Of a stretch of 64,000 nucleotides of DNA, positions 8,911 through 15,084 are shown one piece after another. The position numbers were made by a program, and so were the translations under genes. The notes below the pieces were generated by a model. The model did no database searches and had not been told where the DNA came from. It worked only from the letters and a program-made list of their open reading frames with translations. Origin of the DNA: an uncultured Bacteroidales bacterium (GTDB lineage: Bacteria; Bacteroidota; Bacteroidia; Bacteroidales; UBA932); NCBI GenBank assembly GCA_944326325.1, contig CALVDQ010000004.1, positions 62,001 through 126,000 of the forward strand, written 5' to 3'. The first letter of the stretch is position 1; each line of letters begins with the position of its first letter.

Positions 8911-8941
8911 CAAAGGTACGGATAATTTTTAAAACATCAAA
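8911..8941 (-). promoter_or_regulatory. Near-perfect promoter for the porin-like gene
   Basis: On the minus strand TTTG (8941-8938), a 19 bp spacer and TACCTTTG (8918-8911) match the Bacteroidetes consensus at both boxes. It overlaps the last codons of pncA, which shows the porin gene can be transcribed independently of pncB-pncA. Confidence 0.75.
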
Positions 8942-9549
8942 ATCCCGCTCTTTTTCATTTCCGTAAGGGCCTTTCCGTGACCTTCTTCGCTGACGTATGC
9001 GAGGGCGTCCTTAAGGAGGATGACTTCCTTCCCTGCAGACTTGAGGTCCATGGCCGTGGCCTTGACACAGAATTCCGTGGCGATCCCGCACAGGTATACC
9101 GTATCTATGTCCAGGATGTCAAGTATCTCTCCGACACTCTGCCCGGCCTTGTTCAGTCCTTCGTATCCTGAGTATTGCTCCTTGTCCTTGTCGCAGCCCT
9201 TGTAGAATACGAATTCCTCGGACATATATGGCGCAAGCATTTCATGGACGGCACTGCCTCTGGTTCCTTCCACGCAGTGATCCGGCCATTGGCCGCCGCT
9301 GCCCTGGAACGAGCAATGTCCGGCAGGGTGGCGGTCACATACGAATAGTATCGGATACTGTCCGTATATGTCGTTTTCCCCTGCGGTCTCCGCGGATACC
9401 GTCACCTTGTCTATGAAGGACGCTGCCTGCCTGACCGCCTCTTTTGCTCCGAGATAGGCCATGGACCCGTCAATGAAGTCGTACAGCATATCCACGACCA
9501 CGAGGGCCGAATTCTCTCTTATTTCGGGGGTTTCAGAAACGGAACTCAT
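8929..9549 (-). CDS. pncA: Nicotinamidase
   Basis: The 206-residue isochorismatase-fold protein carries the nicotinamidase triad. Asp20 is in VVVDMLYDF, Lys117 in FVFYKG and Cys161 in GIATEFCVKAT. The metal-site residues Asp72 and His74 are in CDRHPAGH and His91 is in WPDHC. It hydrolyses nicotinamide to nicotinate and ammonia. Its first codons overlap the end of pncB by 17 bp, so the two are translated from one message and give the nicotinamide-to-NaMN branch of NAD salvage. It lies in the cytoplasm. Confidence 0.93.
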   Translation of the reverse strand: MSSVSETPEIRENSALVVVDMLYDFIDGSMAYLGAKEAVRQAASFIDKVTVSAETAGENDIYGQYPILFVCDRHPAGHCSFQGSGGQWPDHCVEGTRGSAVHEMLAPYMSEEFVFYKGCDKDKEQYSGYEGLNKAGQSVGEILDILDIDTVYLCGIATEFCVKATAMDLKSAGKEVILLKDALAYVSEEGHGKALTEMKKSGILMF

Positions 9550-11017
9550 TTATTTCTTTTGATAATTTGTTTATAATGCTCATTTTCAGGTCATACAGGG
9601 AATCGGATATGTCGACCTTGTAGTAATGCGGGTTTATCAGCCTTCTTTCGCTCGGGCTGAAATGGGACAGGGTCTTTTTGTAATAGGCCTTCTTCTCGTC
9701 GAGCGTATGGTTCTCCCAGCACATCCTTCCGTTTTCTATCACCTTGTGCTGCAGCGGTGAAGCTGTATAAGTCCCGCTTTCGAAAGTTTTGGACTTGTAC
9801 CTGTCGTATTCATCGTAGATCGTGAAGGTCTCCCCTGAAGTGATTTTCTTCGAAAGCGCGTCCCCTCTCAGGCAGGTAACATCGGCTTTGAAGATTTCCC
9901 CGGCCTCTTCGTCCGTCTTCATTATCCTGTATGTGATCTGGAAACCGGGATTTATCAGTTTCGCCTTGTCTTCCGACCTTTTAAGCACGGCCTCCCCGTC
10001 CACCTGTACCAGTTTGTATACGTTCCCGAAACACGGGTTTGCCTTGCTCGTGGCTATGGCATCTCCCACACCGTAGGAATCGATGCAGGCCCCCTGCCTC
10101 TCGAGGTCGGATATGATGTATTCGTCAAGAGAGTTGGTGGCGAATATCCTGCAGTCCTTCAGCCCGTGCTCGTCCAGGATACGGCGGCATTCCGTGGACA
10201 GGTAGGCAAGGTCCCCGCTGTCCAGTCTTATCCCGTACATCTGGGGATAGCTGTCATCTATGCCGTTGTCCCTATAGGCTCTTATGGCGTTCAGAACCCC
10301 GCACCTGAGGGTGTCGTAGGTGTCAACGAGGAGTATCAGGGGTTCGCCCCGGTGGCTTTTTATGTAGCTGTCGAAAGCCTTGTACTCTCCTGTGACCGAG
10401 CATCCGAACGAGGTCACGTAACTGTGGGCCATGGTCCCTGTTGACCCGCATCCGAACATTGCCCCGGTCAGGATGTTGGAAGTGTTAGCGCATCCCGCGA
10501 TTATGGCGGCCTTGGCTCCGTAGACTGCAGCCCACGGCCCGTGCGCCCGTCTCGACCCGAATTCGCTCACCGGCTTGTTCGTTGCCCTGCAGACTCTCGA
10601 GGCCTTGGTCGCTACGGCCATCTGGTGGTTCATTATGCAGAGCATCGGGGTTTCCAGGACCTGAGCCTCGATCATCGGTCCTTCCACTATTATTACCGGC
10701 TGGTTCGGGAAGGCAATCTCGCCTTCGCGCATCGCGTATATGTTTCCGGTGAATTTCATACCGGCGAGATATTTCCTGAATCCGGCATATTCCTCTCCCG
10801 GAAGGAACCTGGCGAAGAAATCTTCCGGCATCTTCCCGAGGCCTTCCACCATATCGAGGACTTCCCCGACCCCGCTCACCACAGCCCAGTTGTTGTTTTC
10901 CGGGGCTTTGCGGTAGAACAGGTTGAAAATAGCCGTCTTGTCCGCAAAACCGTTGTCGTAGAAAGACTTTCCCATCGTGTACTGGTACTTGTCGGAGCAA
11001 TATGCGTTGTTGATCAT
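9533..11017 (-). CDS. pncB: Nicotinate phosphoribosyltransferase
   Basis: The 494-residue protein has the long-form NAPRTase layout. The N-terminus is YCSDKYQYTMG. A central FGSRRAHGP segment contains the His that is phosphorylated in the family. LVDTYDTLRCG and IRLDSGDLAYLS are also present, as is FATNSLDEY before the C-terminal domain. It makes nicotinate mononucleotide from nicotinate and PRPP with ATP. It is first in the pncB-pncA operon, with a TACATTTG -7 box upstream at 11042-11035. Confidence 0.93.
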   Translation of the reverse strand: MINNAYCSDKYQYTMGKSFYDNGFADKTAIFNLFYRKAPENNNWAVVSGVGEVLDMVEGLGKMPEDFFARFLPGEEYAGFRKYLAGMKFTGNIYAMREGEIAFPNQPVIIVEGPMIEAQVLETPMLCIMNHQMAVATKASRVCRATNKPVSEFGSRRAHGPWAAVYGAKAAIIAGCANTSNILTGAMFGCGSTGTMAHSYVTSFGCSVTGEYKAFDSYIKSHRGEPLILLVDTYDTLRCGVLNAIRAYRDNGIDDSYPQMYGIRLDSGDLAYLSTECRRILDEHGLKDCRIFATNSLDEYIISDLERQGACIDSYGVGDAIATSKANPCFGNVYKLVQVDGEAVLKRSEDKAKLINPGFQITYRIMKTDEEAGEIFKADVTCLRGDALSKKITSGETFTIYDEYDRYKSKTFESGTYTASPLQHKVIENGRMCWENHTLDEKKAYYKKTLSHFSPSERRLINPHYYKVDISDSLYDLKMSIINKLSKEINEFRF

Positions 11018-11105: not shown

Positions 11106-12560
11106 ATGGAAAAAGAGCTTGAAACCCTTTTCAGAGACTATACCGGAAAACTTCCGGAAAAGGTCGGACAGCTTACCTCGTCCGGAAGCAACCGCACATA
11201 TTTCCGCCTTTCTTCCGGGGGATTTTCCTGCGTGGGAGTGGCCGGAACCGTGGCTGAAGAGAACAGGGCATTCTGCGACCTTGCATCGCATTTCGCCTCC
11301 AAGGGGATAAATGTTCCCGAAGTATATACCGTGAGCCCCGACGGGATGTTCTACCTCCAGGAGGACCTGGGGAACGAGACCCTGTTCGACAGGATTTCCG
11401 CCGGAAGGCATGCAGGCACGTATTCCGAAGAGGAGACTGCCCTTCTGAAAAAGACTATCTCCAGGCTTCCCGAGATACAGGTGAAAGGTGCGGAAGGCTG
11501 GGACTTTTCGAGATGTTTCCACAGTACCTCCTTCAACCGGCGTTCGGTAATGTTTGATCTGAACTATTTCAAATATTGCTTTTTGAAGACTTCCGGTCTG
11601 GAGTTCAATGAGGAGAGGCTGGAAGATGACTTTGACAGACTGGCGGGCCTTCTTCTGGAATATGATGACAACGCGTTCATGTACAGGGATTTCCAGTCGA
11701 GGAATGTCATGATCATGGACGGAGAACCGTATTTTATTGATTTCCAGGGAGGCCGCAGGGGGCCGGTCTATTATGATGTCGCATCTTTCGTATGGCAGGC
11801 CAGGTCCGCTTTTCCTCCGCAACTGAAGGAGGAACTTGTCTCGGAATATGTCTCGGCCTTGAGAAAATACCGGGATACCGATATGGAGGAGTTCCTGAAG
11901 CGATTGCATATATTCGTCTTTTTCAGGACATTGCAGGTGCTCGGTGCATACGGGTTCAGGGGATGTTTCGAGAAGAAACGGCATTTTCTGGAAAGCATAC
12001 CTTATGCTGTCGCGAATCTTGGAGAGGCGGCCGCTGCGGTACAAAGTCACTGTCCTTATCTTGCGGAGCTTTCCCTGAAACTGTCGGGCCTTCCTGGATT
12101 CCGCGGAAGCAGCATGGACACGGAAGGACCACGGCATTCCGGACTCAGGGTCCGGATCTTCAGTTTCTCCTACAGGAAAGGGATTCCGGAAGATACTGCA
12201 GGTAATGGAGGAGGCTATGTATTTGACTGCAGGGCCATGCATAATCCCGGAAAATACGAGCAGTACCGGAATCTGACCGGGATGGACAAGCCCGTGAAGG
12301 ATTTTCTGGAAAGCAGGGGAGAGGTGGTGCCGTTCCTGGAGAATGTGTATGCCCTGGCCGATGCCCATGTGGAAAAATACATGGAAAGGGGGTTCACCGA
12401 CCTGATGTTTTCATTCGGGTGTACCGGAGGACAGCACAGGTCCGTATATTGTGCCGGGGCGCTTGCCGCGCATCTGCATTCGAAATACAGTATTGAAATC
12501 ACCCTTGTCCACAGGGAACAGGGTGTGGAGAAGATATACCGATGCCAGGAAAAGCAATGA
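11106..12560 (+). CDS. AmgK-like amino-sugar kinase fused to RapZ C-terminal domain
   Basis: The protein has 484 residues from the ATG at 11106; an in-frame TTG at 11082 lies in the promoter and is rejected. Residues about 1-310 form an APH-type kinase. The catalytic loop is MYRDFQSRN (Asp195), with Tyr in place of the usual His. The metal-binding FIDFQGGRRGP (Asp212) resembles AmgK, which phosphorylates MurNAc or GlcNAc at the anomeric position. From residue about 347 a second domain matches the C-terminal half of RapZ, with VFDCRAMHNPG and FGCTGGQHRSV (Cys439). In enterobacteria that domain binds glucosamine-6-phosphate. The 3' end overlaps the nucleotidyltransferase start by 19 bp. Kinase specificity and the sensor role are inferences. 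Confidence 0.82.
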   Translation: MEKELETLFRDYTGKLPEKVGQLTSSGSNRTYFRLSSGGFSCVGVAGTVAEENRAFCDLASHFASKGINVPEVYTVSPDGMFYLQEDLGNETLFDRISAGRHAGTYSEEETALLKKTISRLPEIQVKGAEGWDFSRCFHSTSFNRRSVMFDLNYFKYCFLKTSGLEFNEERLEDDFDRLAGLLLEYDDNAFMYRDFQSRNVMIMDGEPYFIDFQGGRRGPVYYDVASFVWQARSAFPPQLKEELVSEYVSALRKYRDTDMEEFLKRLHIFVFFRTLQVLGAYGFRGCFEKKRHFLESIPYAVANLGEAAAAVQSHCPYLAELSLKLSGLPGFRGSSMDTEGPRHSGLRVRIFSFSYRKGIPEDTAGNGGGYVFDCRAMHNPGKYEQYRNLTGMDKPVKDFLESRGEVVPFLENVYALADAHVEKYMERGFTDLMFSFGCTGGQHRSVYCAGALAAHLHSKYSIEITLVHREQGVEKIYRCQEKQ

Positions 12561-13297
12561 TTTTCGCTGCGGGACTCGGCACGAGGCTGAGACCGCTTAC
12601 AGACAGTATGCCCAAGGCTCTTGTGCCGGTTTGCGGGAAACCCCTGCTTCAGATAACGCTCGAGAAGCTCATTTCGGGAGGATATGACGACATTGTGGTC
12701 AATGTCCATCATTTTGCCGGGCAGATAAAGGAATTTCTGTCCATGATGGAATGGCCGGGAGTGCGGATAAGCATTTCCGATGAGTCCGACCTGCTCCGGG
12801 ATACGGGGGGCGGGATAAGATATGCCGCCCCTCTGCTCGGAGAGGGCAGTTTCCTGGTCCATAATGTGGACATTATCTCGAATCTTGACCTGGGGGAATT
12901 CCGTTCCTGTGTCAGGGAGGATGCCGTCGCCACTCTCGCGGTCAGCGGAAGGAAGTCTTCCCGATATCTCCTGTTCGGAGATGACATGAGACTTGCCGGA
13001 TGGATGAATACCCTTACCGGAGAGGTGCGCAGCCCTTACCGAGGACTGGATCCGGACAAATGCAGGAAATACGCCTTCTCCGGTATCCATATACTGTCAC
13101 ACAAGGTGTTCGGGCTTTTCGGGAAAAGGGGGTTCGGGGAGAAATTCCCGATAATGGATTTCTATCTGGACATTGCCGCCGAGTATCCTGTCTACGGTAT
13201 CTCGCCGGAGGGACTGGAACTGATCGATGTGGGCAAGCCGGAGTCCCTGTCACTCGCCGGTGATTTCCTCAGACGCAGCGGGCACGTTCCTCTTTAG
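12542..13297 (+). CDS. murU: MurU-like sugar-1-phosphate nucleotidyltransferase
   Basis: The 251-residue protein is a single nucleotidyltransferase domain that begins with the signature MIFAAGLGTRLRPLTD and contains KPLLQITLEKL and FLVHNVDII, where the Asp would bind metal. Its length and lack of a C-terminal beta-helix fit MurU, which makes UDP-MurNAc from MurNAc-1-phosphate in the peptidoglycan recycling shortcut. The directly preceding, overlapping AmgK-like kinase supports this assignment over a mannose- or glucose-1-phosphate enzyme. The last 48 bp overlap the convergent CPBP protease gene. Confidence 0.78.
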   Translation: MPGKAMIFAAGLGTRLRPLTDSMPKALVPVCGKPLLQITLEKLISGGYDDIVVNVHHFAGQIKEFLSMMEWPGVRISISDESDLLRDTGGGIRYAAPLLGEGSFLVHNVDIISNLDLGEFRSCVREDAVATLAVSGRKSSRYLLFGDDMRLAGWMNTLTGEVRSPYRGLDPDKCRKYAFSGIHILSHKVFGLFGKRGFGEKFPIMDFYLDIAAEYPVYGISPEGLELIDVGKPESLSLAGDFLRRSGHVPL

Positions 13298-14143
13298 GAT
13301 AAGAATGAACACGACCAGGATGAAGAGACTTGCGGCCAGCAAGGTTGCATACTGCCATCCGGCGAGGATTTCCGTATAGGAGTCCATCTCGCGGAAAGTT
13401 TCGTTCTGGCCGACCAGGGCTGCAAACGTGTTGTTGGTGCAGTGCATCAGCATGGTCAGCTTCAGGGACCCGGTCTTGTAGTATACGTAAGCGAACAACA
13501 TTCCCAGGATAAAGGCAGGAAGTGCCTGCCACGGGTTGAGATGGATAATGGCGAAGAACAGCGATGATATCACCATTGCCCATACCGGCCTGATATGGGC
13601 AAGGAGACCTCGCAGAACCAGTCCCCTGCACAGCCATTCCTCGAATATCGGTGCGAATACCGAAACGGACAGGAGGGTTGCCCACAGCGGTGTGCCAACG
13701 AGCATCTGCTCCGTAAGGTTGTCGAACCATTCCGGAGTCGGAGGAAGGATCTTGAGAAGCGGGTCGGTAAGGAAACTGGCGGACAGGGTCACGATGATTG
13801 CCATGATGGCCAGTACCCAGAATCCGAGTCTGCCGAAATCCGACCTGTCTACAGGTATCCCTTCTCCGGCTTCGAATGCTTCGTTGAATCTGCTCCGGCT
13901 CGATGCATAGATCATGGCCGGAATGAACATTATGGGGTATGATATGAGCATGGAGTACGCCCCGAGTCCTTCAGCGCCGGGAATCATCATGAACAGTGCC
14001 GTGACGGCATTGCCCAGAAGGGCGCCTGCGAACAGGAACACGAGGAGTATGAACACTCCTTTTATGTCCGGAAGGTAGTATGTGTAGTTTGACAGCAGGT
14101 CAAAAGACCTCCTGGTGCTTCTCCGGGGCGACATCATGCTCAT
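13250..14143 (-). CDS. CPBP-family intramembrane metalloprotease
   Basis: The 297-residue membrane protein has about seven spans. It has the three CPBP/Abi motifs: EEWLCR (EExxxR), FFAIIHLNP (FxxxH) and MHCTNN (HxxxN). These residues form the presumed metal site of a glutamate-type intramembrane protease related to Rce1. Bacterial members are implicated in processing of peptides or in regulation, but the substrate here is unknown. It follows the nucleotidyltransferase gene on the minus strand by 5 bp, so the two probably share a message. Its 3' end overlaps the murU-like gene by 48 bp. Confidence 0.85.
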   Translation of the reverse strand: MSMMSPRRSTRRSFDLLSNYTYYLPDIKGVFILLVFLFAGALLGNAVTALFMMIPGAEGLGAYSMLISYPIMFIPAMIYASSRSRFNEAFEAGEGIPVDRSDFGRLGFWVLAIMAIIVTLSASFLTDPLLKILPPTPEWFDNLTEQMLVGTPLWATLLSVSVFAPIFEEWLCRGLVLRGLLAHIRPVWAMVISSLFFAIIHLNPWQALPAFILGMLFAYVYYKTGSLKLTMLMHCTNNTFAALVGQNETFREMDSYTEILAGWQYATLLAASLFILVVFILILKRNVPAASEEITGE

Positions 14144-14148
14144 GGCCG

Positions 14149-15084
14149 TCAGTCTTTATTATACAGCGGGGAAGGGTACACTCCCTTGTCCGCAAATTCC
14201 TGGAACTTTGCCACTACACCTGGCCTGTCCTGCTTGAAAGTGACTCCGAACCAGCGTGACGGGGTTGACAGGAGTTCTACCTTGGCCGTATCTTCCTTGA
14301 TCATGCAGTCGATGGCGTAAGGTATATAGAACTCTTTCTTCAGTTCGTTGATGTTTTCCTTCAGGAACTGGCTGAAGATTACGCTGCTCTTCTCGAAATA
14401 GTCAGGAGTGAAGCCCCACATGTTCATCGAGCAGAGGGCTTCTCCGTCCACTTCGACCCTTTCACCCTTGCTGTTGTCGGCGTATACCTTGCCGTCGCCG
14501 GCCTTTTCGACGTTGTGATGTTCCTCTACATGGGTAAGATAGCTTGCTGCATCAGCGGTGCATATCCCGCGGGATACTCCGCCGGATTCGGAAAGGGTGT
14601 TCTCAAGCTTGAATCCGACGAGACAGTATTCCCCTTCGGTCTCGCTGTGTGCCGTAAGCCAGTCAGCCAATATCCTGAAAGAATCCCTTCCGTAGTAATC
14701 ATCTCCGTTTATGACGGCGAACGGCTCCTTTATCACATCTTTCGCCATAAGTACCGCGTGGGCCGTACCCCAAGGCTTTTCCCTTTCAGGATTAAGGGTG
14801 AAACCGGCCGGAATCTTGTTCAGTTCCTGAATCACGAAATCGAACTCTATTGGCTGGCCGTCGGGACAGGTGACGTTCCTGTATCTTTCCGCTACCATTT
14901 TCCTGAAATCCTCGAGAAAGTATTCCCGTACTATGTATACGACCTTGCCGAACCCGGCATTCACTGCATCGTAGATTGAATAGTCGATGATGGTTTCCCC
15001 GTTAGGGCCGAGGCCGTCCATCTGTTTGAGACCTCCGTAACGGCTGCCCATTCCGGCAGCGAGAACTAATAGTGTTGGTTTCAT
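14149..15084 (-). CDS. NTP_transferase-type sugar nucleotidyltransferase
   Basis: The 311-residue protein starts with LVLAAGMGSRYGGLKQ, a nucleotidyltransferase P-loop-like signature, then has GETIIDYSIYDAV and the metal-binding AVINGDDYYG. It lacks a left-handed beta-helix domain. Family members transfer a nucleotide to a sugar phosphate; the sugar is not evident. It is transcribed with the CPBP protease gene. Its promoter probably uses the left half of the palindrome at 15141-15158. It differs from the MurU-like protein in length and core motifs, so it is unlikely to be redundant with it. Confidence 0.75.
   Translation of the reverse strand: MKPTLLVLAAGMGSRYGGLKQMDGLGPNGETIIDYSIYDAVNAGFGKVVYIVREYFLEDFRKMVAERYRNVTCPDGQPIEFDFVIQELNKIPAGFTLNPEREKPWGTAHAVLMAKDVIKEPFAVINGDDYYGRDSFRILADWLTAHSETEGEYCLVGFKLENTLSESGGVSRGICTADAASYLTHVEEHHNVEKAGDGKVYADNSKGERVEVDGEALCSMNMWGFTPDYFEKSSVIFSQFLKENINELKKEFYIPYAIDCMIKEDTAKVELLSTPSRWFGVTFKQDRPGVVAKFQEFADKGVYPSPLYNKD

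Follow-up and report, generated by a model that had tools for sequence, protein, structure and literature searches.

Peptidoglycan recycling through AmgK and MurU bypasses MurA, the target of fosfomycin. To our knowledge, no phosphatase acting on MurNAc-6-phosphate (MurNAc-6P) has been assigned in the Bacteroidota, where AnmK, AmgK-like kinases and MurU are common. RapZ of E. coli, of which HpaP is a homolog, is described as a sensor and an RNA adapter; in the literature searched, no paper names RapZ and AmgK together. In the Pseudomonas route, AnmK produces MurNAc-6P, MupP removes the phosphate, AmgK forms MurNAc-1P and MurU makes UDP-MurNAc, while MurQ provides an alternative, catabolic exit from MurNAc-6P; the AnmK-AmgK-MurU route requires a MurNAc-6P phosphatase (PMC5371407, PMC13041923). 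MupP is a HAD phosphatase (PMC5371407), and a MupP homolog is listed for Caulobacter (PMC13046382). AmgK and MurU of T. forsythia process MurNAc probes in E. coli (PMC13041923), and Tannerella MurK is a MurNAc 6-kinase (PMC7670621).

The C-terminal domain of E. coli RapZ (RapZ-CTD) dimerizes and the RapZ loop holds sulfate or malonate (PMC5737377); the domain binds glucosamine-6-phosphate (GlcN6P) with a KD of about 10 nM (PMC7073468). A 2022 study suspected that the domain has a cryptic catalytic role (PMC9841335). The substitutions C247A and C247S each abolish function; the authors suggested that the thiol might take part in catalysis, and crystals of the domain with GlcN6P contained density that was "likely a chemically transformed product" (PMC9841335). 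Because both mutants also lost sRNA binding (PMC9841335), their effect is no proof of catalysis. According to the citing text in PMC6640185 and PMC10782981, ATPase and phosphatase activities have been reported for HpaP of Xanthomonas.

A kinase-RapZ fusion gene overlapping a MurU-like gene

The window, by which we mean the whole 64,000-nucleotide stretch of Bacteroidales DNA that was analyzed, contains a gene in which an AmgK-like kinase and a RapZ C-terminal domain (RapZ_C) share one frame. This gene and its partner comprise the following features:

11106..12560, + strand: fusion gene, AmgK-like sugar kinase plus RapZ C-terminal domain, 484 aa (ORF, Pfam)
11106..12056, + strand: APH-fold kinase domain, residues 1-317, AmgK-like (PF01636, 48.7 bits; NCBIfam AmgK; nearest solved fold 3csv)
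11685..11705, + strand: kinase catalytic loop R194-D195-F-Q-S-R199-N200 (R194, D195, F196, R199 and N200 invariant)
11736..11753, + strand: kinase metal-binding motif I211-D212-F-Q214-G-G216 (I211, D212, Q214 and G216 invariant)
12108..12140, + strand: disordered interdomain linker, residues 335-345 (AlphaFold2 model, pLDDT < 50)
12147..12539, + strand: RapZ C-terminal domain, residues 348-478 (PF22740, 113.9 bits; model versus 5o5s, Z 19.4)
12420..12443, + strand: loop C439-T-G-G-Q-H-R445-S446 (Cys-x5-Arg-Ser), proposed to be phosphate-binding/catalytic (conservation in 48 RapZ_C sequences)
12542..13297, + strand: MurU-like nucleotidyltransferase, 251 residues (NCBIfam MurU is the best model, 115.6 bits)

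The first-pass annotation had described a single frame joining an APH-type, AmgK-like kinase to a RapZ C-terminal domain, and this architecture was borne out: the 484 codons encode Pfam matches to APH at residues 22-255 and, well above the PF22740 cut-off of 27 bits, to RapZ_C at residues 348-471. The 19-bp overlap of this frame with the MurU-type frame, also recorded at first pass, follows from the ORF coordinates, although an alternative in-frame ATG for the MurU-like gene at 12557 would shorten it to 4 bp.

Divergent from the fusion gene lies a nicotinate phosphoribosyltransferase gene (9533-11017, - strand), overlapped by an isochorismatase-fold gene that probably encodes a nicotinamidase (8929-9549, - strand), and the order is preserved in relative L079. 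On the other side, a gene for a CAAX-type (Rce1-like) membrane protease (13250-14143, - strand) is convergent with the MurU-like gene and overlaps it by 48 bp, and a second, more distant nucleotidyltransferase with a weak PF00483 match is encoded nearby at 14149-15084 (- strand).

The kinase half resembles AmgK, the anomeric MurNAc/GlcNAc kinase of Pseudomonas, Caulobacter and Tannerella, in its APH fold, its catalytic Asp pair, its partner gene murU and its position within the recycling route; it differs in carrying the additional RapZ domain. The assignment to AmgK, made at first pass, stands as to the best NCBIfam kinase model and falls short as to score, which is 53 bits against an equivalog cut-off of 550; for the whole fusion protein, the C-terminal part of the RapZ model outscores AmgK. 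The same holds for the partner, encoded 3' of the fusion, for which MurU is the best NCBIfam model at 116 bits against an equivalog cut-off of 250. Nevertheless, the AmgK model matches all 23 kinase-domain family members scanned, and the MurU model all 20 transferase family members. When 35 homologs of the fusion (36-54% identity) were aligned to the window protein, D195 and D212, the catalytic and metal-binding aspartates to which the first reading of the sequence had drawn attention, were invariant in all 36. AlphaFold2 modeled the full-length protein with a mean pLDDT of 91.9, and the structural matches of its kinase half are APH kinases, with 3csv first.

These low scores would be compatible with a kinase/MurU pair whose substrate is not MurNAc but, say, GlcNAc or a sugar of a surface glycan, with RapZ_C handling the phosphate of that sugar, and 24 of the 159 Bacteroidales genomes carrying RapZ_C have neither AnmK nor MurQ. 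However, the two models match every member scanned, the genome profiles described below associate the domain with AnmK and MurQ, AmgK and MurU of T. forsythia process MurNAc probes (PMC13041923), and the fusion adjoins MurU in Tannerella sp. loci (L088, L099 and L114). We consider a different sugar to be quite improbable.

Peptide patterns from the fusion matched 595 contig stretches from named genomes, 591 of which encode a relative. The 80 relatives that were kept include proteins from Bacteroides, Parabacteroides, Phocaeicola, Tannerella sp., Prevotella and Candidatus Cryptobacteroides. Together with the window, 75 of the 81 fusion loci contain a MurU-like frame (same strand in 73, within 100 bp in 64, overlapping in 40), and some of the loci with no such frame nearby are broken by contig ends. 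Since 591 of the 595 stretches encode a relative and 73 of the 81 loci have the MurU-like frame on the same strand, the fusion is neither a chance event nor an assembly artifact; its recurrence beside MurU across relatives therefore indicates that the architecture is a conserved, selected linkage.

Distribution was examined in a phylum sample of 395 genomes taken evenly over the Bacteroidota and in an order sample of 199 Bacteroidales. PF22740 was found in 49 of the former and 159 of the latter, mostly as the fusion, in a frame some 470-525 residues long. The fusion is carried by many Bacteroidales of the gut and by some other members of the phylum. In one distant family (L043-L049) and in L068, the kinase, RapZ_C and MurU are encoded separately by three neighboring genes, and in some Bacteroidales MurU is located elsewhere in the genome. 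One family of the phylum sample (f19; e.g. G010, locus L177, and G117, locus L195) has throughout a diverged AmgK-like kinase, with neither RapZ_C nor AnmK, and the gene for this kinase adjoins a MurU-like gene where looked at.

The RapZ C-terminal domain and its Cys-x5-Arg loop

The isolated RapZ_C domain was modeled with a pLDDT of 91.9 and superimposes on E. coli RapZ-CTD (5o5s) with a Z score of 19.4 and 1.6 Å over 123 residues, at 35% sequence identity, whereas the next, unrelated structural matches (Pnkp1 and phosphofructokinase) have Z scores of 7 or less. The C-terminal domain of the RapZ/YvcJ/HpaP group is among the nearest known systems. Only the C-terminal part of RapZ is represented: the fusion aligns to positions 157-277 of the 278 in the NCBIfam RapZ model, and the Pfam search returned only APH and PF22740, with no N-terminal Walker A/B P-loop domain, as had been noted at first pass. 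The basic, RNA-binding C-terminal tail of RapZ is absent as well, the mean net charge of the tails being -0.4. With both the P-loop half and the basic tail missing, an RNA-adapter role for the fusion was rejected, in agreement with the earlier suggestion that this role has been lost.

The phosphate pocket differs from that of E. coli at one position. Residues T248, G249, H252 and R253 of the RapZ pocket and the nearby C247 are retained as T440, G441, H444, R445 and C439, but pocket His190 is replaced by Gly382 in the fusion and by Gly in 48 of 48 Bacteroidota RapZ_C sequences. These sequences also contain a conserved NGGG stretch that is absent from the E. coli domain (12204-12215, residues 367-370 in the window). 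The NGGG stretch and the His190-to-Gly change (12249-12251, residue 382) could make room in the pocket for a larger sugar.

The retained residues include the C-T-G-G-Q-H-R-S loop, every position of which is invariant in the 48 RapZ_C sequences except Q443 (47/48); its Cys, Arg and Ser are each present in 48/48. A Cys-x5-Arg loop of the form C-x-x-G-x-x-R-S is a signature of tyrosine-phosphatase-type (PTP-type) enzymes. The stretch G-C-T-G-G-Q-H-R-S fits this pattern (C-x5-R-[ST] between strand and helix), and in the model a strand ends at C439 and a helix begins at R445. Nonetheless, RapZ_C gave no match above background to a PTP or LMW-PTP fold in the structure search, in which DUSP26 and an MPXV phosphatase appeared in Foldseek at E > 2 and 4yr8_D at Z 4.9, and no significant match in the profile search of the PDB; moreover, Gly rather than His precedes the Cys. 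Because the overall fold is not demonstrably that of PTP, the likeness is one of a common loop and not demonstrated homology.

The first-pass annotation had proposed that the fusion could gate recycling by sensing an amino-sugar phosphate such as GlcN6P. On this view, RapZ_C would be a non-catalytic sensor of an amino-sugar 6-phosphate (GlcN6P or MurNAc-6P) that gates the AmgK-like kinase and so tunes recycling to de novo precursor supply. Kinases are commonly put under allosteric control by being fused to another domain, and most of the pocket residues (T440, G441, H444 and R445) are retained. The tight binding of GlcN6P by E. coli RapZ-CTD (PMC7073468) also favors a sensor. On the other hand, the pocket histidine is Gly in every sequence compared, and the Cys never varies, whereas a loop that only binds anions could do without it. 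As stated, gating by GlcN6P was not supported, because the invariant Cys-x5-Arg loop, together with the co-occurrence of the domain with AnmK where MurQ is frequently absent, fits a phosphatase better; a sensor of either ligand is a plausible but less likely reading.

Co-occurrence with AnmK, MurQ and the kinase

We compared the presence of AnmK, MurQ, the AmgK-like kinase and RapZ_C across genomes; these tests were corrected only roughly for relatedness, and many of the genomes are draft assemblies. Among the 199 Bacteroidales, RapZ_C was found in 107 of the 111 genomes with AnmK and no MurQ (four were without it). It was present in 17 and absent from 5 with both AnmK and MurQ, and present in 11 and absent from 16 with MurQ alone; 24 genomes had RapZ_C with neither gene, and 15 had none of the three (Fisher p=1e-10 for AnmK and RapZ_C). 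Restricted to kinase holders, RapZ_C occurred in 124 of 125 genomes with AnmK versus 35 of 44 without (p=2e-5 by genome, 0.006 by family), counts that assume that RapZ_C genomes have the kinase, as the length of the fusion supports. Conversely, AnmK was missing from nine of the ten Bacteroidales with an AmgK-like kinase and no RapZ_C, and, outside this order, from all 42 genomes found with the kinase and without RapZ_C, 41 of which belong to one family. In other orders, MurQ was present in all 21 AnmK-positive, RapZ_C-negative genomes that were tested for it.

RapZ_C is thus almost always present where MurNAc-6P has to be passed on to the kinase and MurU, and kinase holders without it are almost confined to genomes that lack AnmK, a pattern expected of a MurNAc-6P phosphatase. 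The association holds within the Bacteroidales and is one-way: AnmK plus kinase implies RapZ_C. A phylum-wide rule by which RapZ_C needs AnmK was not supported (AnmK in 31 of 49 RapZ_C genomes, p=0.41), and this speaks against a phosphatase, as do the carriers without AnmK, which number 35 of 159 Bacteroidales (22%) and 18 of 49 phylum-sample genomes. In the window genome itself and its two closest sampled relatives, the fusion is present and AnmK and MurQ were not found. Of the four genomes with AnmK and neither MurQ nor RapZ_C, one (G529) has the kinase and is a true exception, two (G478 and G522) are fragmented assemblies in which MurU is present and the kinase was not found, and the fourth is G557, described below. 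AnmK-less carriers may obtain MurNAc-6P by other means, for instance through a MurK-like 6-kinase, or RapZ_C may have a different role in them.

Two further patterns were seen. Bacteroidales genome G557 has AnmK, but MurQ, RapZ_C, AmgK-like kinase and MurU were all unmatched, leaving it without a known outlet for MurNAc-6P. Two families in the phylum sample, f2 and f18 (G230/G238; G019, G051 and others), depart from most Bacteroidales in that AnmK and RapZ_C look mutually exclusive within them.

The profiles also bear on the alternatives. A sensor of MurNAc-6P would account for part of the association with AnmK; however, a MurNAc-6P phosphatase would still be required in genomes with AnmK and no MurQ, and there is no reason why it should be chiefly the genomes without AnmK that can do without a GlcN6P sensor. 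Bacteria commonly have HAD phosphatases. A MupP-like member of this family encoded elsewhere could perform the MurNAc-6P step, given that MupP itself is one (PMC5371407) and has a listed Caulobacter homolog (PMC13046382); RapZ_C would then serve otherwise, for example in oligomerization, as dimerization of the E. coli domain might suggest, or in tethering kinase to MurU. Such an arrangement leaves unexplained both the invariant Cys-x5-Arg loop and the near-obligatory presence of RapZ_C where AnmK and kinase coexist, and we regard it as improbable.

A candidate MurNAc-6-phosphate phosphatase/kinase

On the strength of the genome comparisons and the conserved loop, we tentatively favor, with somewhat less than even confidence, a bifunctional MurNAc-6P phosphatase/MurNAc 1-kinase that feeds MurU in peptidoglycan recycling in the Bacteroidota, over the GlcN6P sensor proposed at first pass. 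MurNAc-6P made by AnmK or by a MurNAc 6-kinase would be stripped of its 6-phosphate by RapZ_C through its phosphate-binding Cys-x5-Arg loop; the fused AmgK-like domain would phosphorylate the free MurNAc at C1, and the product of the overlapping MurU-like gene would make UDP-MurNAc. RapZ_C would thereby do the work of MupP in Pseudomonas, sharing its proposed reaction and pathway position while being unrelated to that HAD enzyme.

Several observations are consistent with such a phosphatase/kinase. Kinase, RapZ_C and MurU are linked, whether as the fusion with MurU or as three adjacent genes; the loop fits the phosphatase pattern, with the modeled Cys at the strand end and the Arg at the helix start; and the AnmK/MurQ/kinase/RapZ_C profiles point to the step for which the AnmK-AmgK-MurU route needs an enzyme (PMC5371407, PMC13041923). 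In RapZ and its homologs, the loss of function in C247A and C247S, the transformed-product density (PMC9841335) and the phosphatase activity that PMC6640185 cites for HpaP point the same way. The background-level PTP-fold matches and the description of E. coli RapZ as sensor and RNA adapter count against it. Pseudomonads need MupP; if they have RapZ as well, full-length RapZ does not supply the MurNAc-6P phosphatase there.

It is also conceivable, though on balance doubtful, that RapZ C-terminal domains are at root Cys-x5-Arg amino-sugar-6-phosphate phosphatases, of which the Bacteroidota branch would be the MurNAc-6P phosphatase of peptidoglycan recycling, joined to the enzyme for the following step, and the sRNA adapter of enterobacteria a derived, repurposed form. 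The locus represents a variation on the established AmgK/MurU route in which the RapZ C-terminal domain potentially plays a new part. If the phosphatase/kinase assignment is true, RapZ_C would fill the missing MurNAc-6P phosphatase step in the Bacteroidota and would give RapZ an enzymatic origin.
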